From an uncultured Flavobacteriaceae bacterium (GTDB lineage Bacteria; Bacteroidota; Bacteroidia; Flavobacteriales; Flavobacteriaceae), in assembly GCA_947487895.1 (NCBI GenBank), contig CANKYF010000001.1, positions 124,001 to 188,000 on the forward strand: 64,000 nucleotides of DNA, given 5' to 3'. Position 1 is the stretch's first letter. The number at the start of each line of letters is the position of its first letter. Under the pieces are notes generated by a model. That model worked only from the letters and a program-made list of their open reading frames with translations, was not told the origin of the DNA and ran no database searches. The translations under genes were made by a program, and so were the position numbers. Below are positions 11,922 to 22,677 of this stretch, one piece after another.

Positions 11922-12233
11922 TTATTCAACCAATTCTAGTTGAACAATTACCCAGACATAATATTCTTGACCTAAATCATCTTTTTCAGTTTCAATCCTG
12001 TAAGTGACATTGAATACTTTTCCAACAAACTTTTTATCTCTTAGATTAAAAACTTCAAGAGCCTTTTTATCTATTTTTTCAAACTCATAGGGTTCCTGTT
12101 TTTCGTTATTCTCTGTGAAATAAAATGTACCGTCTTCATCAATAAAATCAAAGGAAGCTTCAATAGTACTATTATTTATTGGGTTTTTTGCTAATGCTGC
12201 AAATAACAACAACATAACAAATGGTGTTTTCAT
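11922..12233 (-). CDS. Small secreted hypothetical protein, paralog of 12283..12597
   Basis: Signal peptide; FVGKVFNVTYRIETEKDD shared with neighbour. Confidence 0.7.
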   Translation of the reverse strand: MKTPFVMLLLFAALAKNPINNSTIEASFDFIDEDGTFYFTENNEKQEPYEFEKIDKKALEVFNLRDKKFVGKVFNVTYRIETEKDDLGQEYYVWVIVQLELVE

Positions 12234-12282: not shown

Positions 12283-12597
12283 TTACTTAACCATGTCTAA
12301 TTTAATAATAATCCAAACGTCATAGCTCTCTTCAAAATCGTCCTTTTCAGTTTCAATTCTGTAGGTAATATTGAATATTTTACCTTCATATTTTGAATCT
12401 GTTAAATCATAAGTCTTAAAGACATTTTCATCTACTTTCAAAAAAGTATAGGTTTCATTTTCATCAACAGCGTCAATAAAATAAAAAGTGCCGTCATCGT
12501 GAAAATCAAAAATTGCTTTTATAGTTTCGGTATTTTGGCTAATGTTATTATTTGAAACTAAACCAAAGAATAATACAATTACATATAGTGCTTTCAT
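12283..12597 (-). CDS. Small secreted hypothetical protein, paralog of 11922..12233
   Basis: Signal peptide from MKALYVIVLFFG (ORF-track start at 12639 probably too long); YEGKIFNITYRIETEKDD. Confidence 0.7.
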   Translation of the reverse strand: MKALYVIVLFFGLVSNNNISQNTETIKAIFDFHDDGTFYFIDAVDENETYTFLKVDENVFKTYDLTDSKYEGKIFNITYRIETEKDDFEESYDVWIIIKLDMVK

Positions 12598-12803
12598 AAT
12601 TTTAAATTTTAATAATTGAAATAATAATAAAGAGTACATTCCTTTTTTAAGAATGTAAGAGACAGTGATTATTTATTAGATATCTAATATCTAAACAAAT
12701 GATACTAAACCCTTACTGCAACCAATAATTGGGGGCGATGTATTAAATTAGAAAAAGATAAAACAATTAGATATTCCATGTAGGAATAAACTATGCGAAG
12801 GCT

Positions 12804-12882
12804 GGAAGTAAACCTAAAAGTCCAGTTTCTTAAACCATAAGAATGTTTTGAATTTGACTTCCAAAAATTCAAAACTCTGAAC
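12804..12882 (-). ncRNA. Candidate structured RNA (copy 1): three helices plus pseudoknot
   Basis: Minus strand GTTCAGAGTTTTGAATTTTTGGAAGTCAAATTCAAAACATTCTTATGGTTTAAGAAACTGGACTTTTAGGTTTACTTCC; same length and fold as 21780..21858. Confidence 0.6.
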
Positions 12883-14050: not shown

Positions 14051-14314
14051 TTAAGCAAAATCTAATTTATCTATTTTGTATACAATGAAATCTTCATCAT
14101 CATCTTCAACTTGAAAAGAATATGTGATTTCAAAACTCTTGCCAATAAATATATTTGCTTTAAGATTAAATTTTCTATCAGCTAATTGTGATATTGCTTC
14201 AAATACAATAATCTCACCATTATCCATTATAAATTTGTAGTAACCGTCATAGTATTTAACAAAAACACCATATTCTATATTTTTAGTAGTCATAGTTTCG
14301 TTATTAGTTATCAT
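14051..14314 (-). CDS. Small hypothetical protein, distant paralog of 11922 and 12283 ORFs
   Basis: DGYYKFI...FNLKANIFIGKSFEITYSFQVEDDDEDFIVYKIDKLDF aligns with the other two; ATGA overlap with SET gene. Confidence 0.65.
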   Translation of the reverse strand: MITNNETMTTKNIEYGVFVKYYDGYYKFIMDNGEIIVFEAISQLADRKFNLKANIFIGKSFEITYSFQVEDDDEDFIVYKIDKLDFA

Positions 14315-14910
14315 ACTTCTTTAGAAATTGGGGCAAAGTAATTTTTTAATATGGTTTCCATCTCCATTTCCCCTTTACCTATTTTTATTGCCAATTCCCA
14401 TAATTCTTCTCCCAATAGTTCTGATAAAGGTTGTTTTACTTTTGTTATCTGTTTAAAAGCTTTAATTAATTTATTATCCCAAGACTTATGATATTTCAGT
14501 AAATCATTAGGGTAAACTGTTTTTCTTCTTGTACCTTCATCTATTCCTCTAAAGGGTTTATCAATGTTTAAGTACCCATAATCATCTGTTAATTGTTCTC
14601 CAGGAAGAATGTCACGAATTGCGAGTTCAAAATTATATGCAGTAGTTAGGCAATTAGATTTAAAACTGTGGTTTACAAATCGCCCATTATCCCAGCAAAG
14701 TACTAAATTACCAAGATTGTTTTTAAAGGCATAAGTATCTAATATTTCTTTATAAATAGGTTCAAGTTTATTGATTTCATTTTGGGTAAATTCTCTATCA
14801 AGTTTATCTAGCACCCAAGTAATTGTTCCTTTAGGAATAAAATCTGTAGCTACAACTCCGTATCCTACCTCCTTGTTTATAAATTTTATTTCAGTATGAG
14901 GATGTATCAT
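14311..14910 (-). CDS. SET domain-containing protein (putative lysine methyltransferase)
   Basis: [17 protein letters not shown] ... [12 protein letters not shown] ... [19 protein letters not shown]. Confidence 0.85.
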
Positions 14911-16283
14911 CTTTTAAATTTTAATTTCTTTTCAATAGCTTCAATCATAATATTGGCTATATCTAGACCTGTTGCATTTTCAATGCCCTCTAAACCAGGA
15001 GATGAATTAACTTCTAATAAAAGCGGTCCTTTATTAGAGCGAATAATATCTACTCCAGCTACAGGTAAATTTAAAATCTTAGCAGCTTTTATAGCTAACT
15101 TTCGTTCTTCTGAGGTAATTTTAATTTTAGAAGCCGAACCTCCCTGATGAATATTTGCTCTAAATTCACCCTTAGCTGCTTGACGCTGCATGGAAGCCAC
15201 TACTTTACCATTTACAACAAAGCATCTTATATCTTGACCATTCGCTTCTTTTATAAATTCTTGAACTAGTATGTTGGTTTTAACACTCTTAAATGCATTT
15301 ATAACACTTTCTGCAGCTTTATTGGTTTCAGCTAAAACAACTCCTTTTCCTTGAGTACTTTCTAATAACTTGATGATGAGAGGTGCTCCGTTTACCATCT
15401 TTATTAAATCTTTGGTGTCTAAAGGTGAATTTGCAAAACCAGTGGTAGGTATATGAATGTCATTTTTGGCAAACAATTGAGTGGCAAAAAGTTTATCTCT
15501 GGATTGTGTTATAGCTTCTGCCGAATTTAAACAATACACTCCCATAGCGTCAAATTGTCGTATCAGAGCACAGGCATAAAAAGTCATAGATGGTTTTATT
15601 CTAGGTATAATAGCATCAAAAGCATCTATCACATTTCCGCCTCTATACCTAACTTGAGGTTCGGTTGCATCAAACTTCATGTAAGCTTGCTGAACATTTA
15701 AAAATACCATGTCATGACCTCTGGCTTTACCTGCTTCTATTATGCGTTTATTACTAAATAGCTCTGGATTACTAGCTAATAAAGCAATTTTCAACCCTGT
15801 TTTTTCAGGTATAAATGGTTCATATTTTTTATCTATCTCTTCTTGTGTGAAGCTCATCTGTAAATTAATTGAAGCAGCATCAACAACATAACGTCGTGCT
15901 AAAGCTTCTCTTCCTAAGAGCATTCTAAATTCCATTGAATCTCTATTTGCTAATGTAAGCTCAATATCAAAAGTATCTTCTCCTAAAGTTAAAGCGGTTT
16001 TAATAACAAAACGTTCCTCAGAAATACCAAGAGAACTTTTCACCATTCTCTTGGCTATGATTTTAGACTCACATTTAATAGAAATACTTCGATTTTCTTG
16101 AAGCGGATTTACTTCAAATTTCACCCAATCTTCTCCTTTTTTTGAGAAAGATTTTATATTGTTGGCCTGTATTGATGATGTCTTAGCTCCAGAGTCTATT
16201 CGTGCTTTTATAGCAGGGATTCCAAATTCTTTAAAAATGCACCACTCTTCGCTACCAACGACTTTGTAATGTGTTGTATTCAA
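14907..16283 (-). CDS. RimB (retropepsin-like ATP-dependent zinc protease) fused to RimK-type ATP-grasp ligase
   Basis: N-terminal [19 protein letters not shown] (RimB/DUF785-like); C-terminal RimK ATP-grasp [45 protein letters not shown]. Confidence 0.9.
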
Positions 16284-17525: not shown

Positions 17526-17966
17526 TTAATTTACCTTTTTATTAAACTGTCCAAAATACAGTTTTACAACAAAGCGATCATCTTTGTCTAAATAGTCAAG
17601 CGCATCATACCAATATACCCAAGAAGCAGCTTTAAATTTGTGATCTTCTAAAATTTTTATATCATCTATCATTAAGGTAGAAACAAAGTAATGTTTCATT
17701 ATTTCAACATTATCTTTATTACTACCTTTTCTAGAAATGAAATAGGTTAATTCTTCTTTTTTTAGTTGTACACCAATTTCTTCAGAAGTTTCTCTTATAA
17801 GAGACTCGTAGTCGGTTTCCTTTTTTTTCTTTATACCTCCTGCAAGTGAGTATTTCCTTTTGTTTCCAACTTTCTCAAGAACTAACAGTTTATCATTATT
17901 AAAGGCCAACAACCTAGATTTATCCATTCTTTTCAAAATCTTGTTCTTTATTATTTTACTCTTCAT
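17526..17966 (-). CDS. NUDIX hydrolase
   Basis: Nudix-box-like GGIKKKKETDYESLIRETSEEIGVQL. Confidence 0.8.
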   Translation of the reverse strand: MKSKIIKNKILKRMDKSRLLAFNNDKLLVLEKVGNKRKYSLAGGIKKKKETDYESLIRETSEEIGVQLKKEELTYFISRKGSNKDNVEIMKHYFVSTLMIDDIKILEDHKFKAASWVYWYDALDYLDKDDRFVVKLYFGQFNKKVN

Positions 17967-18234
17967 CTTCTAAGGCACTAGTGTCTAAACCATCATTTAT
18001 ACCATCACTATCATCATCTGAATCAAAGCTTTCCATAGCTTGAATTAGACGTTTTCCTACTTTAACTAAGTAAATAGTATCAGTTGTTCTAACTTCTACA
18101 GCTTCAACAATTTCATTTTGTAAATTTTTATAAGTGATTATATCGTCATCGTCATAACCGTCTGGAAATTGGTTTATTAAAAGTGTTAAAATATCGTCGT
18201 TTAATTTATGGTAATCTACTATTTTACGTATCAT
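17956..18234 (-). CDS. Small acidic-tailed hypothetical protein
   Basis: Intact ORF in tight directon; C-terminus DSDDDSDGINDGLDTSALEDEE. Confidence 0.6.
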   Translation of the reverse strand: MIRKIVDYHKLNDDILTLLINQFPDGYDDDDIITYKNLQNEIVEAVEVRTTDTIYLVKVGKRLIQAMESFDSDDDSDGINDGLDTSALEDEE

Positions 18235-18245
18235 TTTTTTAGTAT

Positions 18246-19229
18246 TTACATGTCTAACAAATAGGCAAAAATTAAAGGAGCAACAATGGTCGCATCACTC
18301 TCAATAATAAATTTTGGTGTATTGATATCTAGTTTTCCCCAAGTAATCTTTTCATTAGGTACTGCGCCAGAGTAAGAACCATAGCTGGTGGTAGAATCGC
18401 TAATTTGACAAAAATAACTCCAAAACGGTGTGTCTGTGCGTTCCATATCTTGATATAGCATTGGCACTACACATATTGGGAAATCTCCAGCTATGCCACC
18501 GCCAATTTGAAAAAAACCAATACCATTTTTCGAATTGTTAGTGTACCAATCTGCCAAAAACGTCATATATTCTATTCCAGATTTTACAGTGCTTGCTTTT
18601 AATTCTCCTTTTAATACATAACTAGCAAAAATATTTCCCATAGTACTGTCTTCCCAACCAGGACAAACAATTGGTAAGTTCTTTTCTGCTGCTGCAAACA
18701 TCCAAGAGTCTTTAAGGTCTATTTCATAATATGCTTCTAATACACCAGATAACAGTAACTTATACATAAATTCATGTGGTAGGTAACGTTCTCCTTTATC
18801 GTTAGCTTCTTTCCAAAGCGCATAAATATGTACTTGAAGCCTCCTAAAAGCTTCTTCTTCTGGAATACAAGTATCTGTAACCCTGTTTAAACCCATTTCT
18901 AATAAATCCCACTCATCTTCTGGAGTTAAATCACGATAATCTGGAATTCTTTTATAGTGCGAATGTGCCACCAAATTCATGATATCCTCTTCAAGATTTG
19001 CCCCAGTACAGGATATAATATGTACTTTATCTTGTCGTATCATTTCTGCAAAAATCTTTCCCAATTCTGCCGTACTCATAGCTCCTGCTAGTGATACTAG
19101 CATTTTTGCATCATTTTCTAGCTGTTCTTCATAAGCTTTTGCAGCATCTACAACTGTAGCTGCATTAAAATGCAAGTAGTATGTCTCTATAAAATTTGAA
19201 ATTGCACCTTTAGTATTCATCTTCGTCAT
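18246..19229 (-). CDS. Deoxyhypusine synthase family protein
   Basis: ISCTGANLEEDIMNLVAHSHY, PIVCPGWEDSTMG, QIGGGIAGDFPICVVPM, NEKITWGKLD (DHS active-site lysine context). Confidence 0.85.
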   Translation of the reverse strand: MTKMNTKGAISNFIETYYLHFNAATVVDAAKAYEEQLENDAKMLVSLAGAMSTAELGKIFAEMIRQDKVHIISCTGANLEEDIMNLVAHSHYKRIPDYRDLTPEDEWDLLEMGLNRVTDTCIPEEEAFRRLQVHIYALWKEANDKGERYLPHEFMYKLLLSGVLEAYYEIDLKDSWMFAAAEKNLPIVCPGWEDSTMGNIFASYVLKGELKASTVKSGIEYMTFLADWYTNNSKNGIGFFQIGGGIAGDFPICVVPMLYQDMERTDTPFWSYFCQISDSTTSYGSYSGAVPNEKITWGKLDINTPKFIIESDATIVAPLIFAYLLDM

Positions 19230-20148
19230 TAAATTTTGTATGGTTATTTAAACGATTTGGTTCTTTGTAGGTATCATCATAACTATCTTCAATTTCTTCG
19301 TTATAAAACTTATAACTCAACATTTTATAGTATAATTTGGCGGCAAGAAAATCTGATGATTTATCATTGTCATTTGGGCATAATTCAACAATATCAAAAC
19401 CAACCACATTCTTCTCTACAAATACTTGTTTTAGAAAATCTAAGGTTTCATACCAAAATAAACCACCCGGTTCTGGTGTACCTGTACTAGGTAGTATTGA
19501 TGGATCAAAAGCATCTAAATCGAACGTTATAAAAACATTATCCGTCATTTGCTCTATTGCGGAATCTACCCATGTATCATCTACTGCCATATCATGAGCA
19601 AAATACGTCTTGTCATAGTCCATTACAGATTTCTCCTGAATATCCATAGAGCGTATCCCTACTTGTATTAGGTTGGTGTTTAAGCTAGCATCATAAACTG
19701 CACAAGCATGATTACAAGTGCTTCCTTCATAAGATTGTCTCAAATCTGCATGGGCATCAATATGTAATACTGTCAAATTATCAAAAGCTTCATTAAAAGC
19801 TTTAATAGTTCCTATTGAAATAGAGTGCTCACCACCAAACAGGGTAACAAACTTATTTTTCTTGATGTATTTTTTAGTTTCTTGATGCACAGCGTTTACC
19901 ATATCTTCAGGTTTTACAAGTGCACCAACTGGAGGTGTTAGGTAAATTCCGTTTTTATATACCTCAGAATCTGTTTCTATATCATAGAGTTCCATGTTTT
20001 CTGAAGCTTCTAAAAAAGCTTCGGGACCTTTATCAGCTCCTTTTTGCCAAGTACTTGTTCCATCATAAGGAACAGGGATTAAAACAATTTTGGCTTGTTC
20101 TAATTTGGCATATTGTTCTGGTATGCCTGCGTAAGTTTTAGTATTCAT
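19210..20148 (-). CDS. speB: Agmatinase (ureohydrolase)
   Basis: GGEHSIS, HIDAHADLR, TFDLDAFDPS metal-binding motifs. Confidence 0.9.
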   Translation of the reverse strand: MNTKTYAGIPEQYAKLEQAKIVLIPVPYDGTSTWQKGADKGPEAFLEASENMELYDIETDSEVYKNGIYLTPPVGALVKPEDMVNAVHQETKKYIKKNKFVTLFGGEHSISIGTIKAFNEAFDNLTVLHIDAHADLRQSYEGSTCNHACAVYDASLNTNLIQVGIRSMDIQEKSVMDYDKTYFAHDMAVDDTWVDSAIEQMTDNVFITFDLDAFDPSILPSTGTPEPGGLFWYETLDFLKQVFVEKNVVGFDIVELCPNDNDKSSDFLAAKLYYKMLSYKFYNEEIEDSYDDTYKEPNRLNNHTKFNDEDEY

Positions 20149-20153
20149 TTTAT

Positions 20154-21614
20154 TTATTTGCTAGCTGCAAATGGTTTGCAGGTTCTAAAATCTGAATTAT
20201 TTTCTTCTACCAATGGCTCTTTTTTGTAGCCTAAGATTTCTAGTAAATCTTCACTTTTTTGTTGTTCTTTAAAAAGTGTGGTAATGATATTTCCTTGCTC
20301 ATCTTTATCTATTAGGATATGCTTTGGGTTTGGTATTAAGCAGTGTTGTAAACCTCCAAAGCCTCCAATAGTTTCTTGATAAGCGCCAGTGTTAAAAAAG
20401 CCAACATAAAGAGGATTATCGTTATCATACTTTGGTAAGTAAATAGCGTTAATATGTTGTTCGCTATTATAATAATCATCACTATCACAAGTTAACCCGC
20501 CTAACAATACACGCTCGTAAGAACTATGCCACCTGTTTATTGGCAGCATTACAAAACGCTTATTTATAGCCCATGTATCAGGAAGCGTGGTAATGAATGA
20601 TGAGTTTATCATGTTCCATTTTTCTCTGTCGTTTTGTTGTTTTTGATACAACACTTCGTAAATGGCTCCACCGCTTTCGCCTACAGTAAAACTTCCAAAT
20701 TCAGTAAATATGTTTGGTACGTCTACACCTTCTTCTTGGCAAGTAAGTTTGATTTGATTTATGATTTCATCTACCATGTATTCGTAGTCAAAATCAAAAG
20801 CTAATGAGCTTTTTATTGGGAATCCGCCTCCAATATTTAAACTATCTAACGAAGGACAAATCTTTTTTAAACTGGTATACACTTTTAAACATTTTAAAAG
20901 CTCATTCCAATAGTATGCATTATCCCTTATACCTGTGTTAATAAAGAAATGAAGCATTTTTAGCTGAACTTTAGGATTGTCTTTTATCTGCTTGTTATAG
21001 AACGGTACAATATTTTTATATCCTATTCCTAAACGAGATGTGTAAAATTCAAATTTTGGTTCTTCTTCTGATGCTATTCTAATACCAATATTGAAATTGT
21101 CTTGAATCTCATTAGATAAAAGATTTATTTCTTCATAATTGTCTATAACAGGAATGCAGTTTTGATGCCCATTGTTAATTAATCTTGCAATGTTACTAAT
21201 GTATCTTTCTCTTTTAAATCCATTGCATATTATATAAGTATCCTTATTTATTTTATCAGATTTCTTAAGGTTTTCTACAATATCTATATCAAAAGCTGAT
21301 GATGTTTCTATATGAATATCATTTTTTAAAGCTTCATCTAATACATGTTTGAAATGTGAGCTTTTCGTGCAATAGCAATAATTGTAATTTCCTTTGTAGC
21401 TATGTTTTTTAAAGGCTACTTCAAACCACTTTTTTGCTCTACTAATGTTGTTTGATATTTGCGGTAAATAAGTAAATTTTAATGGTGCTCCATAAACTTC
21501 GACTAATTTGTTTAAGTCAATATCATGGAAAAATAGCTTATTGTTTTCTAAGGCAAACTCAGGTTGCGGAAAATCAAAAGTCTGATTGATTAAATCAATA
21601 TATTTAGTATTCAT
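20154..21614 (-). CDS. speA: Biosynthetic arginine decarboxylase
   Basis: Alanine-racemase-fold PLP decarboxylase; YNYCYCTKSSHFKHVL, LNIGGGFP, GAYQETIGGFGGLQHCLIPNP. Confidence 0.85.
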   Translation of the reverse strand: MNTKYIDLINQTFDFPQPEFALENNKLFFHDIDLNKLVEVYGAPLKFTYLPQISNNISRAKKWFEVAFKKHSYKGNYNYCYCTKSSHFKHVLDEALKNDIHIETSSAFDIDIVENLKKSDKINKDTYIICNGFKRERYISNIARLINNGHQNCIPVIDNYEEINLLSNEIQDNFNIGIRIASEEEPKFEFYTSRLGIGYKNIVPFYNKQIKDNPKVQLKMLHFFINTGIRDNAYYWNELLKCLKVYTSLKKICPSLDSLNIGGGFPIKSSLAFDFDYEYMVDEIINQIKLTCQEEGVDVPNIFTEFGSFTVGESGGAIYEVLYQKQQNDREKWNMINSSFITTLPDTWAINKRFVMLPINRWHSSYERVLLGGLTCDSDDYYNSEQHINAIYLPKYDNDNPLYVGFFNTGAYQETIGGFGGLQHCLIPNPKHILIDKDEQGNIITTLFKEQQKSEDLLEILGYKKEPLVEENNSDFRTCKPFAASK

Positions 21615-21779
21615 GATAAATAATATTCTATTTTGAAAAATAATGTGTAGTGAGCTTACAGAATAGACCAGCTCATTAAATAAAAAATCTCAAAAAAAGA
21701 ATTTCTATCAAATACGAATTTGATTTATAGTTGTGGGAACAAAACCAAACAAGAATTGGTTTATGTATAATAGTGCAAC

Positions 21780-21858
21780 GGAAGTTAGCTTTAAATTTCG
21801 GATGCTTACACCATAAGCTGCTTTTGAATTTGACTTCCTAATTTTCAAAAGCCCGAAC
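21780..21858 (-). ncRNA. Candidate structured RNA (copy 2): three helices plus pseudoknot
   Basis: Minus strand GTTCGGGCTTTTGAAAATTAGGAAGTCAAATTCAAAAGCAGCTTATGGTGTAAGCATCCGAAATTTAAAGCTAACTTCC; covaries with 12804..12882. Confidence 0.6.
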
Positions 21859-22046
21859 GTAGAAACAGTTTTCACTTTGTTCAGCTAAAAACTCCTATGA
21901 TAAAAGTTTTCTAATACAAATGAAATAAAAAAAACAATAAGTTACACAAATTATTAAAAAAAAATCACTCTATAACTTCAAAATTATTAATATAAGTAGC
22001 GTTGTAAAACCTTTAATTTGGATATAAATATGTTAAAAAGAAAGAA

Positions 22047-22080: not shown

Positions 22081-22089
22081 ATTTTATTG

Positions 22090-22163
22090 TAGCGAGATCG
22101 AGATTTGAACTCGAGACCTCCGGGTTATGAATCCGACGCTCTAACCAACTGAGCTACCTCGCC
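22090..22163 (-). tRNA. tRNA-Met (CAT anticodon)
   Basis: GGCGAGGTAGCTCAGTTGGTTAGAGCGTCGGATTCATAACCCGGAGGTCTCGAGTTCAAATCTCGATCTCGCTA folds as cloverleaf, anticodon CAT. Confidence 0.92.
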
Positions 22164-22176
22164 ATTATTTATGATT

Positions 22177-22242
22177 ATCAATCCGACGCTCTAACCAACT
22201 GACCTGCCCGAGTGAACTCGTTCAGGCGGGGCTACCTAGCCA
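22177..22242 (-). repeat. tRNA-Met 5'-half remnant interrupted by 28-nt palindrome (copy A)
   Basis: ggctaggtagc + cccgcctgaacgagttcactcgggcagg + tcagttggttagagcgtcggattgata on minus strand. Confidence 0.85.
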
Positions 22243-22474
22243 AATTTTGTTTTCGCCACCGTCTACCAGCAGCAGATTTTAAATATTTTTCTCTTTGTCT
22301 TGCTTCAATTCTAGTGTCATAGATTTCACTATGGACAATTTTCCAAGGTAAATAAGCTTTAGTAGATTTTACACTTCCAGAATTGTGATTTTTTAGTCTT
22401 CTATCTAAATTTGAAGACATACCAACATAAAACTTTTCAAACTTGACGCTATATAAAATATAGACAAAGAACAT
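22232..22474 (-). CDS. GIY-YIG (URI-type) endonuclease family protein
   Basis: FFVYILYSVKFEKFYVGMSSNLDRRLKNHNSG...TRIEARQREKYLKSAAGRRW. Confidence 0.9.
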   Translation of the reverse strand: MFFVYILYSVKFEKFYVGMSSNLDRRLKNHNSGSVKSTKAYLPWKIVHSEIYDTRIEARQREKYLKSAAGRRWRKQNLAR

Positions 22475-22492
22475 ATTTTTTATAAAATTGAC

Positions 22493-22545
22493 GTTAACCA
22501 ACTGACCTGCCCGAATGAATTCGTTCAGGCGGGGCTACCTCGCCA
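22493..22545 (-). repeat. tRNA-Met 5' remnant interrupted by 28-nt palindrome (copy B)
   Basis: ggcgaggtagc + cccgcctgaacgaattcattcgggcagg + tcagttggttaac on minus strand. Confidence 0.85.
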
Positions 22546-22677
22546 TAATTTTGTGGCTGCAAATATAAAAACATTATTAAAGCTAACAAATAATAGTGAA
22601 ACAAAATATTATTAAAAAAGTTGCCGTACTTATCAATTAATGTATATATTAGGCAAAGTTAAATTTTCAAAGTACAC

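Follow-up and report, generated by a model that had tools for sequence, protein, structure and literature searches.

The speA-led polyamine operon of an uncultured Flavobacteriaceae bacterium is preceded by a pseudoknotted RNA element nested in a leader open reading frame. The element occupies positions 21858-21780 of the minus strand of the window, the 64,000-nucleotide stretch of DNA analysed here. The RNA element is real. Judged from the way its sequence evolves, it is also dual-coded: a leader ORF (uORF) of coding type spans the whole structure.

The element reads G-TTCGG-GCTTTTGAA-AATTA-GGAAGT-CAAA-TTCAAAAGC-A-GCTTA-TGGTG-TAAGC-AT-CCGAA-ATTTAAAGCTA-ACTTCC. Helices P1, P2 and P3 and the pseudoknot, all upstream of speA, are exactly where the first-pass annotation had placed them (Table 1), and the second copy of the same design that it had reported is present at 12882-12804 of the minus strand. 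The fold of the proposed 79-nucleotide element has been confirmed; however, the conserved unit is larger and extends from a promoter approximately 45 nucleotides upstream of the uORF start to the start codon of speA. The region had been regarded as non-coding, which is incorrect, since it overlaps a conserved small ORF.

Table 1 Features of the leader, the polyamine operon and the paralogous leader copy, in window positions.
Feature	Position	Strand	Details
P1	21797..21857	minus	TTCGG 21857-21853 with CCGAA 21801-21797
P2	21820..21852	minus	GCTTTTGAA 21852-21844 with TTCAAAAGC 21828-21820
P3	21804..21818	minus	GCTTA 21818-21814 with TAAGC 21808-21804
Pseudoknot	21780..21838	minus	GGAAGT 21838-21833 (P2 loop) with ACTTCC 21785-21780
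Leader ORF (uORF), 55 aa	21708..21875	minus	GTG start 21875, TGA stop 21710-21708: MKTVSTFGLLKIRKSNSKAAYGVSIRNLKLTSVALLYINQFLFGFVPTTINQIRI
Promoter -7 box T[AT]nnTTTG	21917..21924	minus	TTCATTTG; placed in the window by eye
Post-stop segment, proposed mask of speA start	21691..21710	minus	TGATAGAAATTCTTTTTTTG
Mask partner	21614..21635	minus	ends at A of speA ATG (21614)
Hairpin TGAGCT/AGCTCA between uORF stop and speA	21651..21675	minus	predicted in the window
speA, PLP-dependent decarboxylase	20154..21614	minus	first gene of operon
speB, agmatinase	19210..20148	minus	second in operon
Deoxyhypusine-synthase-like protein	18246..19229	minus	probably homospermidine synthase
Copy 1 of RNA element (paralog)	12804..12882	minus	covariance-model match in own genome
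Copy 1 uORF, 64 aa	12705..12899	minus	ATG start, ends AVRV-stop; in register with copy 2 uORF
Gene behind copy 1	12283..12639	minus	small protein, signal-like N-terminus, no known family

The structure has been evaluated in 88 distinct homologs, which align almost without gaps, and the fold is far beyond chance. Paired cells make up 96.9% of the total, and the value drops to 30–54% once partners are shifted by one to three columns. Changes on both sides have occurred in 21 of the 25 pairs. The covariation score of 0.290 is not reached by any of 500 shuffles, which give 0.162 ± 0.004. The fraction of paired cells is 98.6% in P1, 95.7% in P2 and 95.2% in P3, with double changes in all the pairs of each helix (5/5, 9/9 and 5/5, respectively). 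The pseudoknot is 98.7% paired, with double changes in two of its six pairs, one-sided changes in two more, and two invariant pairs. Unprompted, RNAalifold predicts identical P1, P2 and P3.

The helices have been rebuilt repeatedly. Many lineages show a GC-rich re-pairing of P3 and others a rewritten P2, and the pseudoknot arms change in concert from GGAAGT/ACTTCC to GAAAGT/GCTTTC or AGAAGT/ACTTCT. The frozen synonymous codons together with the double changes rule out that the arms are due to coding alone. Inspection by eye indicates that the pseudoknot of one locus (L139) is apparently fully re-paired as GAAGAA/TTCTTC, and a few weak matches look alike. The architecture is kept in more distant leaders that were reached starting from speA (L144, L145, L147 and L148). 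An alternative 5′ stem, CTGAAC/GTTCGG, that rivals P1 is conserved, with nearly no covariation (three cells).

One reading frame is open in all 99 homologs compared, with an NTG start at a fixed place (TTG in 68, ATG in 22 and GTG in nine) and a TGA stop in 89; the two other frames contain 5.4 and 2.8 stops on average. The length of the uORF is 55 residues in most homologs. The RNA-type and the protein-type evidence are drawn from different parts of this one ORF, the core and the tail. In 70 sequences, the divergence of the tail 3′ of the pseudoknot is 0.30, 0.25 and 0.54 at the successive codon positions, and its single differences comprise 7728 synonymous versus 3982 nonsynonymous ones. Codons for the same residue are identical in 0.556 of the comparisons in the tail and 0.544 in the N-terminus of speA. 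By contrast, the value for the core is 0.877; therefore, the core is under an additional constraint at the RNA level. By these measures the tail of the uORF evolves like ordinary coding sequence, and the tail statistics and the fixed frame rule out that the ORF is a mere by-product of RNA conservation.

The uORF nearly always closes with Arg/Gln-Ile/Val-UGA. A C-terminal [RQKM][IV]-stop is present in 76 of the 95 speA-linked loci, compared with 2.4% of ORFs after shuffling, and 88 of the 95 use TGA as the stop codon. The tail has been replaced wholesale in some lineages. In gap-free columns, P1 begins at a constant position, +19 from the uORF start, which we take to be the edge of the initiating ribosome.

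The proposal that the element acts in cis upstream of the polyamine operon agrees with its genomic context: in 95 of 101 loci the next gene, in the same orientation, is speA, in most cases 60–120 nucleotides past the uORF stop. The six exceptions include a contig end (L037), a spurious short match (L124), two loci from one genus in which the leader precedes a homolog of the gene trailing the operon in the window (L075 and L083), and copy 1 and L102, which both have genes for homologous small proteins downstream. Tabulation of the downstream genes in a named genome collection also places speA next in 76 of the 80 loci listed out of 96, and three of the four others sit at locus edges. In L075 and L083 (genomes G025 and G255), the pseudoknot is intact and the uORF tail has decayed before the homolog of 17956-18234. 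A search for speA in G025 did not find it. It is possible that these leaders represent a natural experiment after the loss of their gene.

The promoter box is located within 75 nucleotides of the uORF start in 89 of 99 homologs, where 15.2 would be expected, and TTTG at 21950-21947 may be its -33 element. The terminator that had been proposed at approximately 21760-21735 sits inside the uORF, and a scan for terminators detects no intrinsic one. The gaps between the uORF and speA cover all three phases, so the two share no frame, which excludes an antizyme-like frameshift into speA. Farther upstream, a tRNA-Met(cat) gene at 22089-22163 is followed at 22175-22551 by repeated tRNA-like fragments of the 3′ part. 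The fragments carry an extra GC-rich palindrome (CCTGCCCGA..TTCAGGCGGGG) and flank a short minus-strand stretch that by eye resembles a GIY-YIG endonuclease gene, possibly an insertion into the tRNA copies.

The 22 nucleotides from the uORF stop are complementary to the start of their own speA, with a mean duplex energy of -6.56 kcal/mol versus -4.68 ± 0.18 kcal/mol for duplexes from swapped loci; none of 20000 permutations reaches the matched value. The excess is limited to segments starting at most six nucleotides from the stop codon. It is kept in most trials after the thinning of close relatives, and under the strictest thinning it is weaker and not significant in every draw. The predicted fold of the window pairs the post-stop segment with bases up to the AUG of speA. 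However, MFE folds of the whole intergenic region do not separate true from swapped segments (37/86 versus 29–38). Therefore, the evidence that the post-stop segment pairs with the speA start region, and with it the case for masking, is moderate. Hairpins similar to that predicted in the window lie between the uORF stop and speA in several relatives, with different sequences.

The 4.39 Mb genome contains two copies of the element only, 21858-21780 and 12882-12804. They are homologous over 102 nucleotides with 73% identity, and their differences are compensatory: G-C to A-T in P1, C-G to G-C in P2, and G-C to T-A in P3. Copy 1 is a paralogous leader ahead of a different target, a gene for a small predicted secreted protein, the start of which may be an internal ATG (MKALYV). 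The gene behind the leader in L102 is homologous to that behind copy 1 (37% identity), and the ortholog of copy 1 in a congener (L176) has a similar small gene downstream. The minus-strand segments 11922-12233, 12283-12639 and 14051-14314 encode related small proteins with the pattern DG-YYF...GK-F-ITY and no Pfam family. These proteins cluster near leader copies, with relatives behind the leaders in L102 and L176 and another near the leader in L075. At 14311-16283 of the minus strand, between the two leader copies, a SET-domain gene overlaps a fusion of a RimK ATP-grasp and a putative zinc protease.

Element DNA is present in six of seven genomes of the genus and in 102 of 251 genomes sampled from the family, in most cases as a single strong match per genome. 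When 398 genomes of the order and 295 of the class were screened with a covariance model at reduced sensitivity, the element turned up in the family only; weak copies could escape because the pre-filter scores few candidates per genome. In the named genome collection, 96 stretches match one exact pattern, and the 80 of them that are listed include Winogradskyella, Olleya, Lacinutrix, Psychroserpens, Tamlana, Algibacter, Formosa, Bizionia, Hyunsoonleella and others. In one genome (G187), two copies stand head to head and one of them faces speA (L138/L179). A mobile or phage repeat has been rejected as an explanation, with two copies in this genome and none in viral contigs that matches an exact pattern.

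The pseudoknot was also sought in a Flavobacterium-like genus (g129), and no convincing consensus fold was obtained. Most of these genomes have a uORF of approximately 59 residues that ends in ...YANIRV or FANIRV, with its TGA 50–70 nucleotides ahead of speA. Because this genus keeps the uORF and no pseudoknot was found in it, the pseudoknot appears to be dispensable for some versions of the leader. In loci L154, L156, L164 and L166-L174 of the genus, a different leader peptide precedes speA, and in some leaders a hairpin begins, by eye, directly after the stop.

The preferred reading, which is given about an even chance of being correct, is that the element is a dual-coded cis leader of the speA-speB-homospermidine-synthase operon, in which ribosomes on the uORF would unmask speA and the pseudoknot would gate them. 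The leader probably adjusts the production of polyamines. The fold, the translated-type evolution of the ORF, its conserved (R/Q)-(I/V)-UGA terminus, the speA linkage and the complementarity are directly supported; to these the model would add masking, unmasking by ribosomes, and control of the pseudoknot and C-terminus by an arginine or polyamine signal. The mRNA would begin shortly upstream and first encode the 55-residue leader ORF with its weak start codon. A three-way junction locked by the pseudoknot would form approximately 18 nucleotides into the uORF, at the leading edge of the initiating ribosome. The segment beginning at the uORF stop would mask the speA start, and ribosomes reaching or pausing at the UGA would displace the mask and permit the translation of speA. 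The pseudoknot and the C-terminal residues at termination would set the number of such ribosomes according to the arginine or polyamine signal. The simplest direction would be feedback repression by polyamines. Copy 1 would be a duplicated leader through which a gene for a small secreted protein has come to obey a similar signal.

More tentatively, the leader may be a polyamine- or arginine-sensing RNA with its aptamer wholly inside the leader ORF, so that the ligand-stabilised fold would gate the ribosomes and the ribosome at the stop would unmask speA. If true, this would be a new class of sensing RNA and a module copied to other target genes; the description of the spermidine riboswitch in 2023 stated that more polyamine-sensing classes surely await discovery (PMC10853860). 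A riboswitch is expected to show a conserved, covarying fold in the 5′ leader ahead of a metabolic operon, as is found here. The junction and pseudoknot could form an aptamer that binds a polyamine, agmatine or arginine, with the peptide being incidental, and the ligand would block the ribosome on the uORF or refold the leader. Such a metabolite riboswitch, somewhat more doubtful again, would account for the strongly covarying fold with its invariant-rich loop and linker, the cis position ahead of a biosynthetic operon, and the rewriting of P2 and P3 regardless of the amino acids encoded. However, the peptide tail is under protein-type selection, the C-terminus persists in leaders in which no pseudoknot was found, and known aptamers give no match.

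That persistence is the strength of the opposite explanation, pure leader-peptide control, in which a metabolite would arrest the growing chain at the C-terminus of the leader peptide, in the manner of SpeFL or TnaC, and the RNA fold would merely slow ribosomes or protect the mRNA. Conserved C-terminal residues before the stop with a metabolic gene downstream are the mark of an arrest leader; (R/Q)-(I/V)-UGA is kept more widely than any other feature, leaders with no fold found included, and the TGA stop of 88/95 loci agrees with it. Nevertheless, the covariation of the core is too strong for a passive role, and lineages differ widely in their tails except for the last two or three residues, which makes this explanation unlikely. 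It is very unlikely that the product of the ORF is a small protein with a function of its own, such as an antizyme-like regulator of SpeA, the dose of which is set by the fold: the tail is conserved at the protein level and the N-terminal half is basic and conserved, but the core peptide changes where the stems re-pair, the tail has been replaced wholesale in some lineages, and there is no protein family match. An independent trans-acting sRNA, which the first-pass annotation had considered, would lie upstream of speA by happenstance and could claim the promoter-like box as its own. It is scarcely credible, because the region, the proposed terminator included, is coding, the scan detects no other terminator, and speA follows on the same strand in 95/101 loci and in 76/80 of those listed.

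The dual-coded leader matters beyond this genome. It fronts the polyamine operon in dozens of marine genera that can be cultured and makes polyamine control in Bacteroidota testable by simple reporter mutants, and its second copy predicts another, uncharacterised target gene family.

Rfam 15, including SAM-type riboswitches, 6S-Flavo and Flavo-1, gives no gathering-score match in the window besides a tRNA. The sole match on the leader is a chance snoRNA (E 3.1), and two divergent homologous loci have none. The uORF peptides of two members match no Pfam or NCBIfam family at E up to 0.1, and a search of a literature collection found no paper on this leader.

The orf34/SpeFL leader of Salmonella and E. 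coli also places a uORF before a decarboxylase gene that starts putrescine synthesis, and translation of orf34 unfolds a structure that masks speF (PMC6386406), as uORF translation would open the masked start here. That leader responds to arginine and ornithine (PMC6386406). By contrast, its unrelated peptide has 34 residues, its gene, speF, encodes an ornithine decarboxylase, and its control is Rho-dependent (PMC6386406), whereas the present peptide of 55 residues precedes speA; these differences argue against membership. The masking partner and the long leader also differ, and no pseudoknot nested in the ORF has been described for it (PMC6386406). The odc1 motif of alpha-proteobacteria, which precedes an ornithine decarboxylase gene, shares with the leader a polyamine gene, a conserved pseudoknot RNA, a uORF and UUG starts (PMC8632094). 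However, it has one long hairpin with a pseudoknot at the 5′ end (PMC8632094) rather than three helices within a 55-residue uORF, an architecture that sets the two apart. Its RNA is mostly upstream of its uORF, which has 11 residues and starts two nucleotides from the main start (PMC8632094), whereas here the RNA is inside the uORF and 60–120 nucleotides separate the uORF from speA.

The spermidine riboswitch, a SAM-I variant, resembles the leader in the control of polyamine genes by leader RNA; however, it combines a SAM-I aptamer with transcription termination and no uORF (PMC10853860), whereas the present leader folds differently and the scan detected no terminator. TnaC of E. coli, in which a small molecule prevents RF2 from acting at the stop codon, is comparable in its manner of working only, as a short leader ORF that ends in UGA (PMC8429421). 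It differs in its 24-residue unrelated peptide, response to tryptophan, Rho control and lack of an internal pseudoknot (PMC8429421). Neither the fold nor the peptide recurs in orf34/SpeFL, odc1, TnaC or the spermidine riboswitch. Polyamine operons with a uORF leader are known; the pseudoknotted RNA nested in the ORF is new, and the leader thereby unites in shared nucleotides a pseudoknot RNA that covaries and a leader peptide that is conserved, two principles that usually occur apart.
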